Shown here: positions 38,470 through 49,635 of the stretch, piece after piece
Numbering within the stretch: position 1 is the stretch's first letter
How the letters are laid out: every line of letters begins with the position of its first letter
Source of the DNA: Pisolithus tinctorius
Taxonomy: Eukaryota; Basidiomycota; Agaricomycetes; Boletales; Pisolithaceae
Direction: 5' to 3'
DNA length: 64,000 nucleotides
NCBI GenBank assembly: GCA_024663395.1
Contig: JANFAH010000003.1
Span: 558,001-622,000, forward strand
Program-made: the position numbers and the translations under genes
Notes under the pieces: generated by a model
Told to the model about the DNA's origin: nothing
Seen by the model: only the letters and a program-made list of their open reading frames with translations
Databases searched by the model: none

Positions 38470-40423
38470 CTATGCCCTCTCCGCCAAAGCGCTCCCTTCC
38501 TCCGGGGGATCCTTGCCATCCTCGCCTACACCATCCTGCTCGTTGTCTTCATTGCTCCCTTCCTCTTCCGCGGTTCCTTCTCTCCCGCTTTTCGCATTCA
38601 TACTGTTTTCACCTCCACTCTCGTTCTGCTGTAGTTGTTGTACATAGCGTTGTTGGTTACTGTGCAGGCGTGTGCCCTCTCTCGGTTCGAATGTGCGTAG
38701 GCGTCGTGCACTGAATTCACCCTCGAGCGGTGTACCCGCTAGTGTTTCTAACCTGTAGGAGTTTCTCAGACGCGTAGCAACTCTGTGGGGAGTGGACCAC
38801 TTAGGTAACAGTTTTCGCTCTGTCTTGAAGGTATAGTCCAAGTCGTTCCGGTATATTTGTACGAGGTCTCCTATGTTGAATACAACTTCTGCCGGCTGTT
38901 GTTTCAGCACGCGACGATCAAATGCTGTTTTTCGTTTGATCGCGTGTCTCACTGCTTCGTCATAACCGTCTAGGCGTTGCTGTGTGGCATATGCCATGTG
39001 TATTGTTGCGTCGAGTTCGGACGGTTCTGTGGTACTAGACGTTAGCTCTGTGCGCTTTGTGTCGACGACTAAACCTAGGAGTAGTTCTTTTGGTGTGAAC
39101 TTGAGGGACGGAAGGAGGCGATTGTTCATGGCCCGGACTGCGTCGTCCAGGTGGTCTGGCCACGTTCTCGGCAGTTTTTCCCAATCGTCATTCTCTGCAC
39201 CATCTTCTCCCACGTTCGGCGCGCACAGGCGTTTGAGGACGTGTAATAGTAGCTTGTTGGTTCCTTCGACTAGTCCGTTGATCCATGGTGAGTATGCGGC
39301 TACTACGTGATGCGTGCATGACCACTTAGCGCAATATTCTTTGACCAACTCGTTGTTGAAGTGGCGGCCTCCGTCCGTCATGAACGTTTCCGCGGCGGTG
39401 AAACTGTTGAAGATGTTTGCCAGGCTGTCGACTGTCGTTTTGGCTGTACCTGCTGTTTTGAACTTAGTAACCCACAGGTGCTGTGAAAACGTGTCTAAGA
39501 AAAGGCCTAGCGTGTGATACCCGCCCTTGCCCGTTGGCATTGCTAGGTAGTCTCCGACTAGTAATTCGAACGGGTGTCTTCTTGTTATGGGCTCTAATAA
39601 CGAATTTAGTTTGGGTGTGCCGAAGTTTTTGCATTTTGCGCAGTCGTGTATGGCTTTCATTACTGCGAGATCCATCTTCGGTGCGTAGTAGCGATCTGTT
39701 AGGGCGATTTTTAGCGCATCCCAGCCCCAGTGTCCTCCGGTTTCATGCGCTTGTCGCGCTTTTTCTTCGGCCTCTTCCCGTGAGATGCACTCCACCTTGT
39801 GTCGCGGCCTGATACTGGTGCCGCCGTACAATCTCCATAACTTACCCTCCTGTATTACGTACTGTTTTGCCTGATGTCTTGCCTTGCTACGGTCACGAAT
39901 GGGCGTGTTTGTGTCGGTGTTGAGTATGGCGTCCACGACCTCGCGGAACAGCGGTTCGCTGTTGAAACGTTGTCGTAACTCTTGGTCGCTCTGGGATAGT
40001 TTGTTGATGGTGAATATGTCGTTAACGAGTCCTAGCGTTGTTTCGGGGTCTGGGCTGACCGACCAGCTACTCCTGTCCTCCTCATTGTCGCGTTCCATAT
40101 TGTCCCATTGTCGGCTTAGCCCGTCCGTGACTACGTTGAGTCGTCCTGGTATGTGTCGCACCGCTATAATGTTGTGCGCTAATATCCCGTCTCGCCATTG
40201 TGCGTGTGCCGCGGATATATTGTCGTTTGATAGGACGTCCTTGAGGGCTTGACAGTCTGTCTCGATCTCCACCGGGAAACCCCACACTATATCCGTGAAG
40301 CGGTCCAGGCCGAACTTTAGCGCTGCGAACTCTAATAGGAACGGCTTGTAGTTCCTCTCGGTCGACGACGTTCGTTTCGATGCAAACGCTATTGGTACCG
40401 TTTTTTTCGATGGTCTTGCCCGT
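38470..40423 (-). CDS. pol: element A pol, C-terminal part: RNase H end and integrase
   Basis: Continues the pol frame beyond element B. The RNase H remainder reads PIAFASKRTSSTERNYKPF and VEIETDCQALKDVLSN. The integrase zinc-binding domain has the HHCC pattern (ARQAHETGGHWG, then DCAKCKNFG). The catalytic core carries the three acidic residues in VGDYLAMP, MTDGGRHF and NGLVEGTNK. The C-terminal chromatin/DNA-binding region includes VQIYRNDLDYTF and LPKWSTPHRV, and the protein ends in an acidic Glu/Gly-rich tail. A run of seven T at about 40401-40407 shifts the frame by one relative to the expected RNase H start; six would restore it. Confidence 0.9.
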
Positions 40424-40888
40424 TGTAGGAATTGGTAATAAGATATACCTAGAAATAGTAATAGTCAGTAATGATGGGCGAGTATACTTCTCGACCCAAG
40501 AGGGAGGTTCTCTCTGGAGAAATGAAGTGTAGTAAAAATGTAAAAATGCGAACTAGAAGAGAAAACTTAGCTCTGCCTGTCTAACAACTGTTGCCAGTCC
40601 TCCTGGCACTTTGGGTACTCCCCAAAGTAATAAATCTAACTTTGAAAACTCGCCGAATTGCGAGACTAAATCACCCTGCTACTGAGGGCCTGAGACATGT
40701 ACTGGTTGTTTTTGGTAAACTGAACTCGCGCGAACACAGCACACGCGCTTAGTCAGCGACACGGCTGCTCGTCACCAAGTCCAGGGGTACAAACACAAAA
40801 ACAAAGGCAAGAAATAAAACAAGTCCTTCCACCCCTAAACTCCTGACCAAGACGGATTCTCCTAGGGAACTCGAACTCGTTCCCTACA
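40424..40888 (-). repeat. element B LTR (3' LTR on minus strand)
   Basis: 465 bp; matches 47046-47510 except for one C/T difference in the context CACACGCGCTT versus CACACGTGCTT. The difference falls at a CpG. Confidence 0.95.
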
Positions 40889-41692
40889 TCCGAGGGGTGG
40901 TTTAGAATTCGACCGTCCTCGGTCGCTCTCCTCCTCGCACGAACATCCTCATCCTCGCATCTGCTTCCCTCGACCTCACCACATATCCTCATGCCCTTCA
41001 AACACAACTCTTTGCCCCTAACCTCCTCACTACTCGAACATGACCCCCTTCCTTCCCAAAACACGCTCCTGATCTCACTGAACAACCCTCTTCATCCTCA
41101 AAACCTTTCGCCCTCAAACACAACCCTTTCCGCCTACAGAGCGCCACCTGGCCTCTCGAACACACCCTGCCTCTCGAACACTCCCCTCAAGGCCCAAACC
41201 TCGAACCAAAAGACGACGGAGATAATCTCCAGGCAAGCGAACAAGTGAGTAATAAATCGAGTGCGGAGCAAGTCAAAGACTGCTCTTCGAGGCACAGTCT
41301 CTGTGCGAACGGTAACAGAGTGTAATGCAGCTCTGCGGCTGGTACAGCGGATGCTGGCCCTCTACGAGGCAGCTCGAAGACGTATATATGTACCTAAAAC
41401 AAACCTTGATCAGTCGTGTATTTACTATCCTTATATGCATATGTGCTCTCGACTACTGCTCGTCCTTAAGACGATTTAGCACCAAGAAAAAACAATGGAA
41501 CTCGAAACTATAAGTCGGGGTGAGTAGAACCACCCAAAGACTACTGCGACTCGGTTGAACGACGTCGCTCGAAGCAAAACTCAAATGAAAGAAAAACTAT
41601 ATATATACGCTCACCGGGACCTTCGCTCCGTCCACCCGTCCCATTCCTATTTTCACAGTCTCGACTCGCTGTGCACGCGCGCCCTTGATTTC

Positions 41693-44600
41693 TCATACTT
41701 CATCCGGTATTTCGTCTGGTGGCCGAAGCTCTCGCACTAAGTGTCGCCGAGCGACCTCGAGTCGCCCATCTTCGTCTACCACTTGTTCACTGCTAGAAAC
41801 AAAATATCTCGAAGTAGCACATGTTTGAACTATAATAAAAGCTGTCACCTTAAGTCTGTAGATCCTCAAGCTCTCTTCGATGATAGGTCTTCGGCCCCGA
41901 CGGGTGAAGGTGCTAACTTCTTTCGATCCTAAGCTCTGGCCTTCGACCTCGTAGTCAGGTGGACGACGTTTTGATGCTAAGTACTGATGGATGGCCTGAA
42001 GCCGCCCATCCTCGTCGATCGCCTTTTTCTTTGCACTAAAGATTCTGTACCTCGCAGTAGAACATACTCGAACGAAAACCGAAAAGGTCACCTGGATTTT
42101 GTATGTCCCTTTCCTGAGTTTCCCCTCCCATACTGTCGCTCTTGGCACTCCTCTCGCCTCAAAGGATTCCACCGAATACCCTGTACTTCGTAGCCCTTCG
42201 CGTATTCTAGAATAAAGCAGTCGTAAGCAAAGCCTCACAAGAATAAAAGAGGAAAAAAGGTTCTTGGGCTCTGTGCGTGAGCCTGCATTGCCTCTAATGC
42301 GCGGTGCATGCTCCTCATTCAACCGACCGCCCCTCAGAGCTCCCATCATATCTCGTAGTCTTTTGTACTTCTCCTTAGATACCAGGTTTTTCCTGACGTA
42401 GGTATAATCGAACAAATTATTGTTGTCGCTGATCCGGTTGTCCCTGGACTTGAACATTTCCTGGGCATCATTATACGCGTCGAACGGCTTCTCCAGATAG
42501 GGCAGGACACCGGCTGCGATGGCTGTTTCGACAACGGCTCGGGTGCCTTCGACGTAACCCCATGAGTAGACAGAGGGGTCTTCCGCACCTCGCCGTAGCA
42601 AGGCATCCTGTACAATATATGTAATGCCCGATCTCTCCAATATATCCAACACGTCCCATTCGTCTGTGGTGTCCCCCGAATAAAATGAGACTTCGTGATG
42701 TCTCTGCACGATATCCAACACGGGGATGGAGTCTCCATTCGCTAACCGTTCGACAATGTGTCGACCTACTAACTCGCTTCGGTCGACAGTAATGTAGGCA
42801 TCTTCATCTTGAAGGGAGGCGGTCGCAGGTTGTCCCGATCGGGACCTTTGTACTGTAAGCGCGTCGACACTCAAGGATTCGATGGTGCTCTGTAAAAATT
42901 CGTGATCCCTAAAACGCGGTAGCTGTAAGTAAAACGGCTTAAAGAGAAGGCTAAGACTTGGGCCTTCGAGCCCACTCGGCATGGCTTCGATGCTCCTCGC
43001 ATCTCGCGCGTCTTGCTGCGACTTTGAAATTCGCTGTTGTACTGTATATAGATGCGTTCCTTCTTCGACGTCTTCGTCTATTCTAATACGATGTAGCTGT
43101 AAGTAGAAATTTGCAAAACGAAAGTAGAAGCTAGAGCTGTCACGCTCATTATCCATCCTCGATGATTCGTCGATACTCTGTGAACACTCGTATTTCCTGA
43201 AACAACGTAGCTGTAAGTTAAACGCTTCGAAGAAAAAACTAAAACTCAGGCCGTCGGGCCCACTCGATGTGACTTCGACACTTCTCGCACGTCTTGCTTC
43301 TTGTCGCGACTTCAAACCTCGCCATCGCGCCGCTCTTGTGGCATTTCGCAGTCGCTGTACTTGTCGCTCTGTATGTTGATACCTTGTTTCTTCGAAGTCG
43401 TTGTCTATCCTAAAGTAACCTAACTGTGAGTAAAAAGCCGCGCCACTAAAATCGAAACTTGGGCCATCGCGCTCGGCGTCCATGTCTGTCGAATCTTGTA
43501 TCTTCAGTGATCGTTGCCGTAGATCGAACTGTAGTCTTCGCAGTTGTTTTGCCGTACTTCGTTCGTGGTTTGTTGTAGCTTCGTGGATACCTTGTAAAAA
43601 GTCACACTCCCTAAAATGGCGTAGGTGTAAGTAAAACGGCTTAAAGACAAAACTAAGACTTGGGCCTTGGAGCCCACTCAGTGTGGTTTCGACACTGTCC
43701 GCATGTCGCGCGTCTTGTTGCGACTCCGAAATCCACTGTCGTGCGGTATACAGACGCATTCCTTCTTTGATGTCGCCGCCTACTTTAGAAAAATGTACTC
43801 GTAAGTAAAAACCTGGGAAACAAAAATAAAGACTTGAGCCGTCGGGCTCCCTATCCATGCTCGTCCGATGCTGTATCTTCGACGCTCGCCATCGTAGTTT
43901 GAACTGTAGATATCGCATTTGTCTTTCTGCACTTCCATGCTCACGTGGCCGTTGATTCGCGCTAAGTCTAATCGTTGTCGTCGTTCCTCGTACTGCGATA
44001 GTTGTCCATTGTAGACATCTGGCTTCCCTAGAATAACGAAGGTGTAAGTAAACTATCATAGGACCAAAATGGAACTTCGAGCGTTCGAGCTCGGTGATCT
44101 TCATCGCGCATCGTTTCCTTTGGACGGCCGTTCTCGCCTCGCATAGCCTTCGGTCTGTGTCAAACATTATCGTCGCTGCCGCTGTATTCGTCGTACTTCT
44201 GCGCAACCTTCGATCGTAGTTCGTCATAGTTTCTTGTACCGCGATTGTTGTTCGTCGTAAGTACCCGACTTCCCTCCCTCGAATGACTATTTTCTCTTCG
44301 TGCCGCCTTCGGTCAGCATCAAGTGCCGTCGCCGCCGTCACTCGTGCCTGAGTCGACACCACCATCGCTCGTTCGTAGCTTGCTGTAGAATCTTGAGTTG
44401 CGATCGCCAGGATGTCGGTTGCATTTCGTCGCAACCATCCGCTATCCCTAGAGTAGGATAGTTGTAAGTAAAGCATAATGGAACCAAAACAGAACCTTGG
44501 GCCGTCGAGCCCAGTACCCGCGCTCGTCGCGCTTTGTTCCCATCGAACGGCATACTCAATCTTGCCTAGCCATTGATCTGTGTAAAACGCTGTCATCGTC

Positions 44601-46867
44601 GTCATTCTTGGTATCGCGGTCATCTGGGCATCATTCGGCCTTCGTCGTATATAGCCATTCTCCCTAGAATAACGTAGATGTAAGTAAAGCGTTTTGAAGT
44701 CGAAACGAACCTCTGAGCCGTCGAGCTCAGTACCCGCGCTCCTCGCGCTTCGTCTGTATATAACGGTAGTTCTAGCCTCGCGCGGCCCTCGATCTGTGCC
44801 GAGCGTCAACGACGTTGTTCTTCTTTGTACCGCAGTCGCTGTTCGTCGTAGATATTCATTTGACCTAGAATAGAAACGTTGTAAGTAAAACGCTATGAAA
44901 TCGTAACAGAACCTTGGGCCGTCGAGCCCAGTATCCGCGCTAAGTAGGTTCGTCGTCGTCGTCGCTATCGCACTATCCGCTGCTGCTGTCGCCATCGCTC
45001 TGGTCGCCATCGCTCGTAACCGCGGTACCTTGCGCGTGGTACGTCGTTCACCCCATTCTTCATATCCTTCGATTGCAGCGATCTTGCGTAGTCGGTCTAT
45101 AACTGTAGAGTCGTCAGTATGTAGTACTTGAATGCGCGCGGCCACAACACGCAGAGCGGTCACGTGACTCCGCTTAGTCAACATCGCAGAACTTTCTGTG
45201 CAAGTCCTAATACCGAATGTGCGCGTCGATTCGCTCGACGAATCCTCGAATAAAACATTTATTGCCGACACTGAGCGGCCGCGGAATATTTCGAGTGCGA
45301 GGTCGTCCACCCTCGCCGCGTGCTTCAACATTTCAATTCGCAAAACTTCATCCGGCGGCTTCCTTCGTATAATGAGCCTCGATGGCTCCTCGATCTGAAT
45401 TCTTCTTGCAATAACCTTCGACTTGATGTGATTCATGTTCTGCGGCGCTCTGTGTGAGTCAACGACCTCTTTGTATGCCAACCTTTCCACTTCGAGACTG
45501 CCTGTGAGTGCTTCGAGCCCTTCGACTCCAACTCCTGCGGGCTTTGGGTGTTCTTCGAGCCTTTCGGCTTCGAATTCGAGCGGAATCTTTGACCTGAATA
45601 GGTCGTCGGTTAACTGATGCGTATTTCTGCTGACTGCAGGAACTCCGAGGTCGCTCCTTTCACTGCCTCGACCTCTTAGGTAGGACTCCTGTAGTGACAC
45701 ACCAGTAGCCATCAGAGAAACTCGATACGAACAAAAAGAAAAACCCCTTTGAGTGTTGTAATTTGCTTCGAATTCGAACGGGACTTTCGTTGTGAGTGGT
45801 TCCTCCACCAATGCAGGTTCGACTCGCTCGAGTTCTACTGCTTCCTGTAACTCAGTAGTCAGTATTCTGTTTGTACTCAAGGAAAACTCTCCCGTCTCAA
45901 AACAGGTTGCTGCGGCTGCTTCGACGAGCCTGCCAGGACTTTGGTCTTCACTCTTTGTCTTCTCGGATGAACTCGGTGGCTGCGCATGACTTGTCGAAAC
46001 TAACTTTGGTACTTTCTCGCACTCTATGTATCCTGATAACTCTGTAGATCCCTGTACACTGGACGTCAGCGAGTCATGTGTAGCTGTAGGCAGAAAACAC
46101 TTCGTAGATAGATGTTGCCTGCCCGAACTCGATTCTGGGTCACTTCGTGGCTCATAGTAGTCTCCCGCGCTTGTTCGTGCTCGCTCCGAGCGAAATCCTT
46201 TGTGTAGTAGTCGTGTTGCTGTGTATGTTACCTGCTCCATGGGCCATGGATCGTCCGAGTGTCGCCGTCGATCGTCGCGTCGCATTTTCCGAATAATTTC
46301 ACGCCGGAATTCCTTGTCGAAGCCTTGTACATAGAGGTCTTCGAGCTCGTCAGCCTCGAGTTGCTTCGAAACCCGTAGAAACGTTGCTAAATCTAGAAAA
46401 TATAGTCTGTAGTTCATCAGTTCTTCCTCTGTACGAATTTCTCTTCTTGCTCGGCTGTCAACGAGGCTGTAAAGGTCATTCCTCAAGTACTGTTGATCCA
46501 TTTTTCGGGACCCAGGATACAAACGCGCAATGGCCACCACGAATTCGGGCCAACTCAGGTGATCTTCGACGAATTCATACCATGAGTCCGAGACTTCGCT
46601 GCTTGCATACCAGCAAACCCATTTCGCCCATTCTTGGTCATCGAAGCAATTCTCGCGCTCGCAAAGACTTCGAACCTCTCTGAAATACCTAAAAAGGTCA
46701 GATGCATACCCCGAGAACCATGGTGCACCCCTCGAGTGCCTCAGTGGCATTCCCTCGAGCTCTCTCGGCGCGTTCTCACGGCTTCTTCGCAAAAATTCGA
46801 CTATTAGTTTCCCTTCGGACTTGCTTCTCGGCTCGAGGGATCTTCGACTTCGACACTTGCTTGACAT
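41693..46867 (-). CDS. element B 1,724-aa ORF: gag-like, repeat modules, ERG26-like insert
   Basis: Single uninterrupted frame from ATG 46867 to the stop at 41693. Residues about 40-240 resemble basidiomycete retrotransposon gag: MPLRHSRGAPWFSGY, SDLFRYFREVRSLCERE, DSWYEFVEDHLSW and IARLYPGS. No CCHC knuckle seen. Residues about 240-620 are Ser/Glu-rich. Residues about 640-1330 hold around ten degenerate modules with a core like GPRFCF....YLQLRYSR....LRR. Residues 1357-1491 resemble ERG26. The end (about 1590-1724) contains two related copies of a block with VDEDGRL or IDEDGRL and RPPD. Composition is rich in Arg and Thr/Ser. The absence of stops over 5.2 kb implies recent activity or selection on the frame. 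Function unknown; presumably a structural protein of the element. Confidence 0.8.
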   Translation of the reverse strand: MSSKCRSRRSLEPRSKSEGKLIVEFLRRSRENAPRELEGMPLRHSRGAPWFSGYASDLFRYFREVRSLCERENCFDDQEWAKWVCWYASSEVSDSWYEFVEDHLSWPEFVVAIARLYPGSRKMDQQYLRNDLYSLVDSRARREIRTEEELMNYRLYFLDLATFLRVSKQLEADELEDLYVQGFDKEFRREIIRKMRRDDRRRHSDDPWPMEQVTYTATRLLHKGFRSERARTSAGDYYEPRSDPESSSGRQHLSTKCFLPTATHDSLTSSVQGSTELSGYIECEKVPKLVSTSHAQPPSSSEKTKSEDQSPGRLVEAAAATCFETGEFSLSTNRILTTELQEAVELERVEPALVEEPLTTKVPFEFEANYNTQRGFSFCSYRVSLMATGVSLQESYLRGRGSERSDLGVPAVSRNTHQLTDDLFRSKIPLEFEAERLEEHPKPAGVGVEGLEALTGSLEVERLAYKEVVDSHRAPQNMNHIKSKVIARRIQIEEPSRLIIRRKPPDEVLRIEMLKHAARVDDLALEIFRGRSVSAINVLFEDSSSESTRTFGIRTCTESSAMLTKRSHVTALRVVAARIQVLHTDDSTVIDRLRKIAAIEGYEEWGERRTTRKVPRLRAMATRAMATAAADSAIATTTTNLLSADTGLDGPRFCYDFIAFYLQRFYSRSNEYLRRTATAVQRRTTSLTLGTDRGPREARTTVIYRRSARSAGTELDGSEVRFDFKTLYLHLRYSRENGYIRRRPNDAQMTAIPRMTTMTAFYTDQWLGKIEYAVRWEQSATSAGTGLDGPRFCFGSIMLYLQLSYSRDSGWLRRNATDILAIATQDSTASYERAMVVSTQARVTAATALDADRRRHEEKIVIRGREVGYLRRTTIAVQETMTNYDRRLRRSTTNTAAATIMFDTDRRLCEARTAVQRKRCAMKITELERSKFHFGPMIVYLHLRYSREARCLQWTTIAVRGTTTTIRLSANQRPREHGSAERQMRYLQFKLRWRASKIQHRTSMDREPDGSSLYFCFPGFYLRVHFSKVGGDIKEGMRLYTARQWISESQQDARHADSVETTLSGLQGPSLSFVFKPFYLHLRHFRECDFLQGIHEATTNHERSTAKQLRRLQFDLRQRSLKIQDSTDMDAERDGPSFDFSGAAFYSQLGYFRIDNDFEETRYQHTERQVQRLRNATRAARWRGLKSRQEARRARSVEVTSSGPDGLSFSFFFEAFNLQLRCFRKYECSQSIDESSRMDNERDSSSFYFRFANFYLQLHRIRIDEDVEEGTHLYTVQQRISKSQQDARDARSIEAMPSGLEGPSLSLLFKPFYLQLPRFRDHEFLQSTIESLSVDALTVQRSRSGQPATASLQDEDAYITVDRSELVGRHIVERLANGDSIPVLDIVQRHHEVSFYSGDTTDEWDVLDILERSGITYIVQDALLRRGAEDPSVYSWGYVEGTRAVVETAIAAGVLPYLEKPFDAYNDAQEMFKSRDNRISDNNNLFDYTYVRKNLVSKEKYKRLRDMMGALRGGRLNEEHAPRIRGNAGSRTEPKNLFSSFILVRLCLRLLYSRIREGLRSTGYSVESFEARGVPRATVWEGKLRKGTYKIQVTFSVFVRVCSTARYRIFSAKKKAIDEDGRLQAIHQYLASKRRPPDYEVEGQSLGSKEVSTFTRRGRRPIIEESLRIYRLKVTAFIIVQTCATSRYFVSSSEQVVDEDGRLEVARRHLVRELRPPDEIPDEV
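42395..42799 (-). other. captured ERG26-like (sterol C-4 decarboxylase) fragment
   Basis: In-frame within the element B ORF. It shows several signatures of fungal sterol-4-alpha-carboxylate 3-dehydrogenase in the right order: GRHIVERL, VLDIVQRHHEVSFYSGD, VEGTRAVVETAIAAGV, EKPFDAYND and NNLFDYTYV. The N-terminal nucleotide-binding glycine motif expected before GRHIV (GGSGFLG type) is replaced by DRSELVG. The segment normally between AAGV and EKP that carries the active-site region is missing, and later parts are shortened. The fragment cannot be an active dehydrogenase. It contains no introns, which suggests capture via RNA. Confidence 0.75.
42900..44935 (-). repeat. about ten degenerate coding repeat modules in element B
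   Basis: On the + strand a core GTAAGTAAA (or close variant) recurs at about 42924, 43098, 43211, 43433, 43629, 43803, 44043, 44463, 44673 and 44881. Each is followed about 30 nt later by a TTGGGCC/TGAGCC and a GTCGAGCCC-like block. Spacing is about 210 bp in the upstream part (44881, 44673, 44463; then a double step to 44043) and irregular afterwards. On the minus strand each encodes a module with LDGPRFxF and YLQLRYSR-like cores. Confidence 0.75.
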
Positions 46868-47025
46868 TTGCTGCTCGAAAAATAACTCTGAAAATTTCCT
46901 GAATTCCTAAGAGTAGATGGTAGCTAGAATCAAGACTCTGAATACTTAGCTTGTCCAACTCAACCCAGCAAAGACTTCATTCGGTGATAAAACGGTGACT
47001 TCTTTCCCCAAAATGGACAGAACCC

Positions 47026-47043
47026 CCCTCGCGGTGGGCTCCA
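47026..47043 (-). promoter_or_regulatory. element B candidate primer-binding site
   Basis: Two nt inside the 5' LTR on the minus strand, TGGAGCCCACCGCGAGGG. It starts with TGG, complementary to a tRNA 3' CCA end. The matching tRNA cannot be named without a search. Confidence 0.6.
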
Positions 47044-47045
47044 GA

Positions 47046-47510
47046 TGTAGGAATTGGTAATAAGATATACCTAGAAATAGTAATAGTCAGTAATGATGGG
47101 CGAGTATACTTCTCGACCCAAGAGGGAGGTTCTCTCTGGAGAAATGAAGTGTAGTAAAAATGTAAAAATGCGAACTAGAAGAGAAAACTTAGCTCTGCCT
47201 GTCTAACAACTGTTGCCAGTCCTCCTGGCACTTTGGGTACTCCCCAAAGTAATAAATCTAACTTTGAAAACTCGCCGAATTGCGAGACTAAATCACCCTG
47301 CTACTGAGGGCCTGAGACATGTACTGGTTGTTTTTGGTAAACTGAACTCGCGCGAACACAGCACACGTGCTTAGTCAGCGACACGGCTGCTCGTCACCAA
47401 GTCCAGGGGTACAAACACAAAAACAAAGGCAAGAAATAAAACAAGTCCTTCCACCCCTAAACTCCTGACCAAGACGGATTCTCCTAGGGAACTCGAACTC
47501 GTTCCCTACA
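47046..47510 (-). repeat. element B LTR (5' LTR on minus strand)
   Basis: 465 bp with TGTAGG/CCTACA ends, nearly identical to 40424-40888. Followed by CCGT, the second copy of the target duplication. Confidence 0.95.
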
Positions 47511-49635
47511 CCGTTGGTGTCTGTATCTTGCTACGCTGTGTTAGTACGGCTCCGAAGCCTTCTTGGCATCCATCCGTAGTTACTACGAACGGTGTCCCAT
47601 CGTAGCGTGGTGCGTGCAATGTTGGTTGGCTTGTTAGTGCTACTTTGAGGTCCAGGAACGCTGCTGTGTGCTTGGGCTCCCATTTATCTGTGAGCTTGTA
47701 GTTAGTTAGCGCTTTTCGGTACGTGGGTTTAGATATGGGCTTAGGTATGTCGACTTGTTTTATTAAATCCCGAAGCGGTCCTTCGATTTTGGCGTACCCT
47801 CTAATGAGGTCTCGGAAGTGACCCGCTAGTCCGAGGAATGACGTGAGCTTGAGTGCGTCGTCCGGTTGTTTCCATTTGACGATTGCTGATAATTTTGCTA
47901 GGTCTGGTTGTACTCCGTGTGGTCCGATTGTTGCTCCGGCGAACGTCATTTCTGTCATATACAAGCGGCATTTGGTTGGTGACAGCGATAGTTTGCATAT
48001 TCTGCATCGCTGGAAGATCCTTTGTAGTTTTGTTAGCATGCCGTCGAAGGTGTTGTCTGCGCAGCCGCCATCGTCTACGAACAATTCCATTGTATTGTCC
48101 GATAGTATGTCGTGCAGGCAGTTGGTCGCCGTTGCTGAAAACATCGTTGGTGCGCCTGTCCATCCCATCGCCATTCTTTTGTACCAGAAGTACCCTTTCC
48201 CGTCAACGAAGAACGTAAAGTACGGTCGCCATTTCTCCGGGATCTGTATTGCATAGAAGCCCGCTGCAAAGTCGAACACTGAGACATACTTGTGTCCGCT
48301 CAGACGTTGTTGTTTTGCTCTGATATCGCCTTGAAACAGCGGTGGTATTTGGGTGACCTTATTCAAATCCGAGAAGTTTTGTGTTACGCGCCATTTCAGT
48401 GCCTCGTTTGATGGTTTTGTTGTTGTGTCGGGCTGCCATTCCTGTTCGTTTGTTGTTACTGCGAACGGTTGTGCTAGGTTTGCGTCAGCGCATTGTCTGT
48501 TTAGTTCTCGTTGGAGGTCACTCAGCGTCATTCCTCCGTTAACGTCGTGTGTTTTTTGCGCTAGTACCGTTGGTGCGACGTGTTTGATCCGCGGGATATT
48601 GGCTTGTTCGATGAGGTCGGCCTCTAGCATTTGATCTACCCATCTGTGCATGAACTGACGTTGCGGTGGGTTCATTGGCCGTTGATTTACCATTGTTCGA
48701 AAAGTTGTGTCGTCTCGTATGTTTAGGTCGATCTGCGCTCCTGGTATTGGTAGTACCTCACCGAGGGAGCATGCAAATATATCTGCGAATTCCGTGATTA
48801 GCTCTGTTACCTTTCGTTTTTCTTCTTCTGACAGATCGCTGCCGATCTTGATGTTTTGCAGGATATACTTGATCCTTGGCGGTGCAAACGGATCCGTTAG
48901 CCTCGTGAATATTTTTCCTGTGTCCGTTGGTTGTATTTCTTCGATGCTTTCTGGTTCGCCTGCTGTGCTCGTGACGTTGACCCATATTTTTCGTTCTTTG
49001 TTCGTTTTGCACGATCCTGGGTTTCTGATGAACTGGTTCTGTAGTGTCACGGTGGTTGTGTCGTCCGTAATCGTGACTTCATCTGTAGTGTAGTCGTGTT
49101 TAGCCTTGAACGCTCGTAGTAGTGGTTTTCCAAACAGGAAAGACCACCCTCCTCCACTATTGAAGACCTCGAATGTTCCTTCGGCTTCTACTCCATTCAC
49201 CCGTATCGTTCCTGACCACGTTGCTTCCGACGGGACAACTGTTCCGTTTGCCATACGTAGTGTTTGCGTGGAGGGTCGCCACCCTTGTAGGCTGTGCCTG
49301 ATTTTGCTGAATACTGACGAGCACATGGCACCCGTCATGGCGCCATCGTCGAACAAGGCCTGGATTTGGACTGGGTCGGTGCCGTCTGGATTTTTAATGG
49401 TTATTACGTGCGTGAATGGGACAGGTTTGTCTGCTGTGTCTGTCTGCTGGCTTTGGTTGCTGCATGTCGCGGAGTAAAGGTCAATAGCATGTGTTACGAC
49501 GGTTGGTACATGCGAGCCGGGGCGAGCCAACGTAGATACATTTGACGTCCGGGTTGTTGTGCTGTCCTTCACAGCAACCCGTCGTCGTTTTCCTGATCCT
49601 CTAGCGCTACGAGTCTGATGGTATGTGCGACATTC
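47511..49635 (-). CDS. pol: element A pol, N-terminal part: protease, RT, start of RNase H
   Basis: Pol frame opens after a stop at 49636-49638 and overlaps the gag end by about 65 nt, in the -1 frame. The protease active site is in QALFDDGAMTGAMC (DDGA type). Reverse transcriptase shows VAPTVLAQK, FSDLNKVT, YVSVFDFAAGFYAIQIP, MGWTGAPTMF and the catalytic ELFVDDGG (FVDD instead of YVDD). The connection ends with LGLAGHFRDLIRGYAKIEGP, followed by the RNase H start FVVTTDGCQEGFGAVLTQ. The frame is cut at 47510 by element B and resumes at 40423. All catalytic aspartates are present, so pol was intact before the nested insertion, apart from the homopolymer problem near 40404. Confidence 0.92.

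Follow-up and report, generated by a model that had tools for sequence, protein, structure and literature searches.

An LTR retroelement family of Pisolithus tinctorius carries an intron-less, in-frame segment derived from the sterol gene ERG26

The window, i.e., the whole stretch of 64,000 nucleotides of Pisolithus tinctorius DNA analysed here (assembly GCA_024663395.1, contig JANFAH010000003.1, positions 558,001 to 622,000), harbours a long terminal repeat (LTR) retroelement of 7087 bp, which sits inside an older LTR element, termed element A, with the integrase of the latter on one side and its reverse transcriptase on the other. The interior of the inserted element is governed by a single large open reading frame (ORF), which comprises a Gag-like N-terminal part, a series of tandem modules and a segment derived from ERG26, the gene of sterol-4-alpha-carboxylate 3-dehydrogenase (Table 1).

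Table 1. Features of the ERG26-carrying element and of the surrounding element A, in window coordinates
Feature	Position	Strand	Basis or remark
Single large element ORF, 1724 aa, stop included	46867..41693	(-)	
N-terminal 224 aa of the ORF, most constrained part, Gag-like	46196..46867	(-)	position and similarity to the ORF of another LTR element
Tandem ORF modules, most with an intron-like block (GTTCGTTT..TTTACTTACA..TATTCTAGG)	42880..44950	(-)	
ERG26-derived in-frame segment, 135 codons	42395..42799	(-)	translation, tblastn against host ERG26, Pfam/PDB
Extra ERG26-like codons (SLQ..) upstream of the earlier boundary	42800..42817	(-)	
5' LTR (TGTAGGG..TTCCTACA)	47046..47510	(-)	
3' LTR	40424..40888	(-)	differs from the 5' LTR by 1 substitution over 465 aligned sites
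Primer binding site TGGAGCCCACCGCGAGG	47027..47043	(-)	2 nt inside of the 5' LTR
4-bp target site duplication, acgg (element sense)	47511..47514	.	
4-bp target site duplication, acgg (element sense)	40420..40423	.	
Integrase part of the older element A	38473..40287	(-)	
Reverse transcriptase / RNase H part, likewise of element A, on the far side of the inserted element	47509..49572	(-)	

The same architecture recurs elsewhere in the genome. An LTR pair with TG..CA ends and 0-21 substitutions was found in 19 of 21 sampled loci (the window and L019-L038), 16 of these 19 rows, which represent 13 insertions, being bordered by an exact 4-bp target site duplication and the other three by one that is off by 1-2 bases. 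The exact duplications all read NCGN (window 40420-47514, L019-L036), and the family thus seems to insert at CpG. The primer binding site is preserved in 17 of the 19 rows and occurs as a variant in L027 and L036, and the junction of LTR and primer binding site was detected 333 times in the genome at no more than one mismatch, with 0 occurrences of the control. A check for a polypurine tract found the 30 nt preceding the 3' LTR not to be purine-rich. L024 has flanks that resemble a primer binding site belonging to a different LTR element, inside which this copy seems to have inserted.

No match to pol, with that of element A as the only query, was obtained in any of the 19 element interiors, and because of this the mobility of the family would appear to need the enzymes of another element. 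Element A itself was rejected as this partner, its Gag profile match being weak (P 0.088) and its LTRs and the bases following them being different. Likewise, a search via the common primer site, in which the best 150 of 2198 reverse transcriptase candidates were scored, placed none of 100 listed sites on contigs C1-C9 within 9 kb of a listed reverse transcriptase (n=62). Three other kinds of LTR element (L060, L061, L062 and L063) possess the same primer binding site, and L061 also has the terminal bases of the family.

The first 224 residues of the ORF align with a 458-aa ORF of a 4.1-kb LTR element (L061/L064) at 29.6% identity over 159 columns (E 1.7e-12), and neither the N-terminus nor this 458-aa ORF matches a Gag model. 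DUF7841 was matched by 7 of 15 N-terminus members (best E 0.0085), a CX2CX4HX4C zinc knuckle is absent from eight intact ORFs, and an AlphaFold model built from the 15 sequences is too poor for use (pLDDT 48). Gag-like, and no more than that, would therefore seem to be the appropriate description of the N-terminus. About ten modules of the ORF (window 42880-44950 on the minus strand, with one more near 42220) contain a block of 47-48 nt, GTTCGTTT..CTTAC..TCTAG, which resembles a spliceosomal intron, yet is translated through in frame.

The original prediction, drawn from the window alone, held that 135 in-frame codons of the ORF carry ERG26 motifs in ERG26 order, that the dinucleotide-binding Gly motif is altered and that the active-site stretch is missing. 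All of this was borne out for the window copy: the minus-strand translation contains GRHIVERL, VLDIVQRHHEVSFYSGD, VEGTRAVVETAIAAGV, EKPFDAYND and NNLFDYTYV in the order of ERG26, and DRSELVG occupies the place of the Gly motif. The match starts 18 nt upstream of the boundary given earlier, at SLQ (to 42817), the start ATG of ERG26 is gone, and the alignment extends, in shortened form, up to host residue 207. In tblastn against a small set of loci, the genome's own ERG26 was matched with E 1.7e-37. Profile and structure databases responded more faintly to the segment itself, i.e., with an Epimerase match in Pfam below its cut-off (E 0.0012), a weak PDB match to the sterol-4-alpha-carboxylate 3-dehydrogenase 6jkg (E 0.0017) and one chance match in NCBIfam, where the ORF gave none. 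The longer sister copy P0125, on the other hand, matches 3Beta_HSD with E 5e-32. An AlphaFold model of the segment from 42 sequences is too poor for use (pLDDT 45). Throughout the genome, tblastn of the segment returned at least 169 matches, most of them 97-42% identical, when 150 of 165 candidate places were scored, and at least 136 ERG26-like places were counted, the host exon included. Because of this wide recurrence the match is neither chance nor contamination, the latter having been named beforehand as a way in which the prediction could fail.

Enzymes of the SDR type possess a GxxGxxG motif and a Ser-YxxxK motif. Neither of these features of a functional ERG26 or SDR enzyme was found in the window copy, which is devoid of the TSSAGVV stretch and of the Lys of YxxxK, both still present in longer copies, while the Gly motif is replaced in all family copies whose alignment covers that place. 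Judged by these motifs, no sterol-enzyme activity of the segment is expected to remain.

A 3Beta_HSD search of the genome found its best match in the donor gene, on contig C15, whose four exons upon splicing by hand yield a product of 447 aa with the same sequence as P. tinctorius protein P0005. Alignment of the element copies with this gene, as had been proposed for placing the intron sites, revealed that host intron 1 (60 nt) is exactly missing in 13 of 13 aligned copies and that, of these 13, the 9 copies extending to the intron 2 point likewise lack exactly host intron 2 (55 nt); moreover, the intron 1 point is without insert in 41 of 41 segments. The longest copies (L010-L012, L037 and L038) correspond to the host protein from residue 2 to approximately residue 346 at 61-63% identity, and by eye some 20 nt preceding the ERG26 ATG may still align. 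An alternative in which the source gene was intron-less and the host gene acquired its introns later is highly improbable. The intron comparison was made with ERG26 DNA of P. tinctorius only, which leaves some room for it, but the P. albus model P0010 has an extra LVSPDLKPPL at the intron 2 point and P0120 has an unrelated start at the intron 1 point, disturbances which suggest that introns are located at both points in this species, too.

The protein tree comprised 13 ERG26 proteins of Boletales, that of P. orientalis not being among them, together with 22 copies from P. tinctorius and one protein from P. orientalis. It united all 23 element sequences in one clade (bootstrap 100), which in turn joined P. 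tinctorius ERG26 (99) with P. microcarpus and P. albus outside. The P. orientalis protein P0135 combines the element's own upstream sequence with the ERG26 part, and its match to the window ORF covers sequence to either side of the junction (48%, E 6e-61). The most basal sequenced Pisolithus species are said to be P. tinctorius and P. orientalis (PMC10066745). Given the common junction and the basal position of both species, the capture most likely predates their split, with horizontal transfer as a possible alternative.

An early stage of the family is apparently preserved on contig C30 (274900-277300; L058, L065 and L066), where an ERG26-like piece without intron 1 still contains 17 codons near residue 177 that are missing from other copies. 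Copies of this type number about 11, at 94-100% identity. Modules of the element are matched directly before the piece, over up to 116 nt (72%, E 6e-12), and after it follows a match to the 3' part of the element (74 nt, 76%, E 7e-05, L023). In a tree that includes the C30 sequence, it joins the element clade at 80, the elements alone being supported at 99 and both together with the host gene at 99. Among 25 sites that distinguish no fewer than 70% of the element copies from the host, it agrees with the host at 17 and with the element at 4, and has a different state at the remaining 4. The locus is read as an old family member that would have left before most of the changes had accumulated, and its interpretation as a second, independent ERG26 retrocopy was rejected in view of the element-like sequence on both sides and its placement beside the element clade. 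The C30 piece is split by a repeat of approximately 0.88 kb with 41 genome matches, at whose break 4 bp of host sequence overlap, as for a target site duplication. The C30 locus also bears on the notion that the source was an already existing processed ERG26 pseudogene beside or around the element, which became fused by read-through or recombination. Such an intron-less pseudogene would yield the same end product, and nothing speaks directly in its favour; the one candidate, C30, has element-like flanks and groups with the elements, and the minority of listed places that were read yielded no further intron-less ERG26 locus beyond the family, rendering this source improbable.

The family has spread recently. 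LTR pairs without any substitution occur in five loci (L021, L025, L031, L032 and L036), two of which, L031 and L032, lie at different sites and have ORFs of equal length with identical ERG26 codons. Because these two loci combine identical LTR pairs with the same ERG26 codons, the element appears to have moved together with the captured segment. L028/L029/L030 and L033/L034 have common flanks within each group, so that each group seems to represent a single insertion present on duplicated contigs. The cargo does not accompany every N-terminus: 114 N-terminal matches, of 150 scored, could be typed, 69 with an ERG26 match no more than 9 kb downstream and 45 without. L059, the one locus read among these 45, is a close relative of the window copy, to which it is 98.4% identical over 1783 bp, but a stretch of approximately 650 bp that includes almost the entire segment is missing from it; its ORF stops at 1243 codons, just before the break, with TGA in place of the CGA of the window, and 3 of 472 sites are different between its two LTRs.

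Copies that kept the ERG26 part have lost different blocks of it. The loss of one codon at residue 26/27 is common to 40 of 41 segments, the 41st being L058, where it lies in the adjoining piece. The approximately 17 codons near residue 177, which in the host gene are flanked by two CCAAAT repeats, are missing in 21 segments aligned across that place, L058 excepted. A 24-codon block, which in longer copies ends in GT and AG, is missing in 13 segments, and the corresponding block of the host gene ends in GG, not AG. Another 24 codons near residue 145 are missing in 11 segments, and an 18-codon block with the host sequence GTTCGACC..CCCCTCAG in all 11 segments that reach it. Hence, the retained ERG26 blocks differ from copy to copy. 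In a first scan of the deletion boundaries GT-AG was found in 4 of 7 merged entries (63, 96 and twice 72 nt), with none for the CT-AC control, although the 63-nt loss also occurs twice without GT-AG. A second scan with other settings found GT-AG in 1 of 6 groups, so that only the 72-nt loss has these ends in both. Owing to this discrepancy splicing was dropped as a general cause of the deletions and is retained as a suggestion only.

A single frame change was counted in the 41 segments, which stem mostly from the best matches and hence favour open frames, and a change followed by too little matching sequence would escape this count. The 18 stops in these segments, spread over 15 of them, are all TGA, which is the pattern expected from CpG decay; the wider tblastn listing of the segment contains a few TAA and TAG stops. 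Within the LTRs, CpG transitions are about six times as frequent as other transitions, and since NG86 ignores this bias its omega values (mostly 0.4-0.5 for ERG26) were set aside for simulation-based ones. Of 814 changes, 521.7 were nonsynonymous, compared with an average of 564.1 (532.3-601.5) when neutral evolution under the LTR substitution spectrum was simulated 200 times, which corresponds to an omega of about 0.79. This comparison used 40 segments, without L058, which gave 17 independent and informative pairs, three identical ones having been skipped. Intact ORFs were compared in three sets, each consisting of three pairs. Omega of the ERG26 part was 0.65-0.85 (out of 100 simulations, 4, 25 and 3 did not exceed the observed value), as opposed to 0.36-0.41 for the Gag-like part. 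The other non-Gag parts of the ORF lie at 0.67-0.77, the ERG26 part thus being no more constrained than these, and the 35 codons preceding it at 1.5-2.3, which is not significant. The proposed dN/dS comparison thereby indicates weak constraint on the segment, less than in the Gag-like part. Because one frame change in 41 segments stands beside an omega near 0.8, it seems that the frame is guarded, the residues hardly.

These figures are relevant to the question of whether the Gag-like protein now uses the ERG26 piece as a functional component, e.g., a spacer, a multimerisation or a binding domain, whose sequence is under selection. Old as well as young copies, from two species, keep it in frame, its nonsynonymous changes fall below all 200 neutral simulations, and substitutions in intact ORFs avoid codon position 2 (214, 107, 270; the pairs are not independent). 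The effect is small, however, different copies retain different ERG26 blocks, the close relative L059 has lost nearly the whole segment, and the poor predicted fold may count slightly in either direction, which altogether makes a working part rather unlikely. The related proposal that the element built an ERG26 domain into its Gag-like polyprotein as a selected structural module, pruned via splicing of its own genomic RNA before reverse transcription, with the ORF evolving through intron-like deletions that preserve the frame, is considered unlikely. Action of the segment at the RNA level on host ERG26, for instance through small RNAs that dampen it or are diluted by it, is very improbable: short stretches are still near the host DNA (around NNNLFDYTYV in the window copy), but long exact identity is mostly gone and the kept frame would be left unexplained.

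The reading favoured here, to which a probability of roughly 0.78 is assigned as a whole, is that a spliced ERG26 mRNA was captured once and amplified, and that it now constitutes an in-frame passenger without expected enzyme activity. A single capture followed by amplification is indicated by the one clade in which the copies unite with P. tinctorius ERG26, by the older relative below them and by the same junction in P. orientalis. The capture would have taken place once the P. microcarpus/albus line had split off, in an ancestor probably common to P. orientalis. Its most likely route would be template switching in the particle while reverse transcription was under way, with a co-packaged ERG26 mRNA as the putative partner. 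The resulting copy would have joined the tail of the long Gag-like ORF in the frame of ERG26 itself, and the chimera would then have been amplified, with recent movement. Subsequently, the ERG26 part has lost its start codon and NAD-binding motif and also, in a stepwise manner, in-frame blocks, some of which have cryptic GT-AG intron ends and may have been removed from element RNA by splicing ahead of reverse transcription; at present it would reside as an in-frame passenger within a loosely constrained stretch of the ORF. As far as sequence comparison can establish them, the intron-less copy, its single origin in the sampled set, the in-frame fusion and the recent spread are demonstrated. The original idea that a retrotransposon took up a spliced host transcript is thus upheld by the missing introns, by the common clade with P. 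tinctorius ERG26 and by the open frame in several young ORFs. Of the two fates envisaged for the fragment, retention as part of a structural protein stands as regards the well-kept frame and falters on the weakly constrained residues, the N-terminus without Gag-model match and the loss in L059, so that drift in frame is the better description, albeit with good preservation of the frame as such.

Most known instances of host-gene capture by LTR elements come from plants. Here, one P. tinctorius genome contains many stages of a capture, from an old ERG26-like relative via near-complete to strongly pruned copies, and with the intron-containing donor gene and a copy from a second species on hand the fate of a captured gene becomes countable with respect to losses, their order and whether frame or residues are kept. 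For genome annotation these elements call for caution, as several pieces are filed publicly as 3-beta-hydroxysteroid dehydrogenase or hypothetical proteins. The public gene model P0004 joins an element piece with PF18758, which we take to be the KDZ transposase, and probably merges two adjoining mobile elements.

Compared with ERG26 (P0005; PDB 6jkg), from which the segment originates, the window copy lacks the NAD motif, the active-site stretch and most of the C-terminus. The carrier is akin to the TR-GAG type, i.e., Gag-only non-autonomous LTR elements, in its LTRs, primer site, target site duplication, single Gag-like ORF and in that no pol was found, but differs from it by an ORF of approximately 1600-2000 codons with intron-like repeats and a host gene piece, by the missing Gag-model match and by the lack of a clear polypurine tract. 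In the literature searched, with most subscription papers outside its scope, no precedent for host-gene capture by a fungal LTR element was met, and the fungal captures described in the papers examined are due to DNA transposons. In Pyrenophora tritici-repentis, a histone H3-like gene has been transduplicated by a transposon of the hAT type (PMC3538342), which resembles the present case in that a fungal mobile element amplifies a host-like gene; the hAT element, however, is a DNA transposon whose cargo has its own ORF, whereas the Pisolithus family is an RNA element with its cargo fused in frame. Similarly, the Helitrons of Pleurotus ostreatus (PMC4289320) are mushroom transposons carrying host gene fragments, though as rolling-circle DNA elements in contrast to an LTR element with an intron-less copy. 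The nearest known case is Bs1, a maize LTR retroelement that carries pieces of a plasma-membrane ATPase and of two other genes (PMC13317346). As in Bs1, an intron-less host gene segment lies between the LTRs of the Pisolithus element and contributes to a chimeric reading frame, while the Pisolithus family is distinguished by the capture of one gene in a fungus, by more than 100 listed segments, by its occurrence in two species and by the stepwise loss of in-frame blocks.
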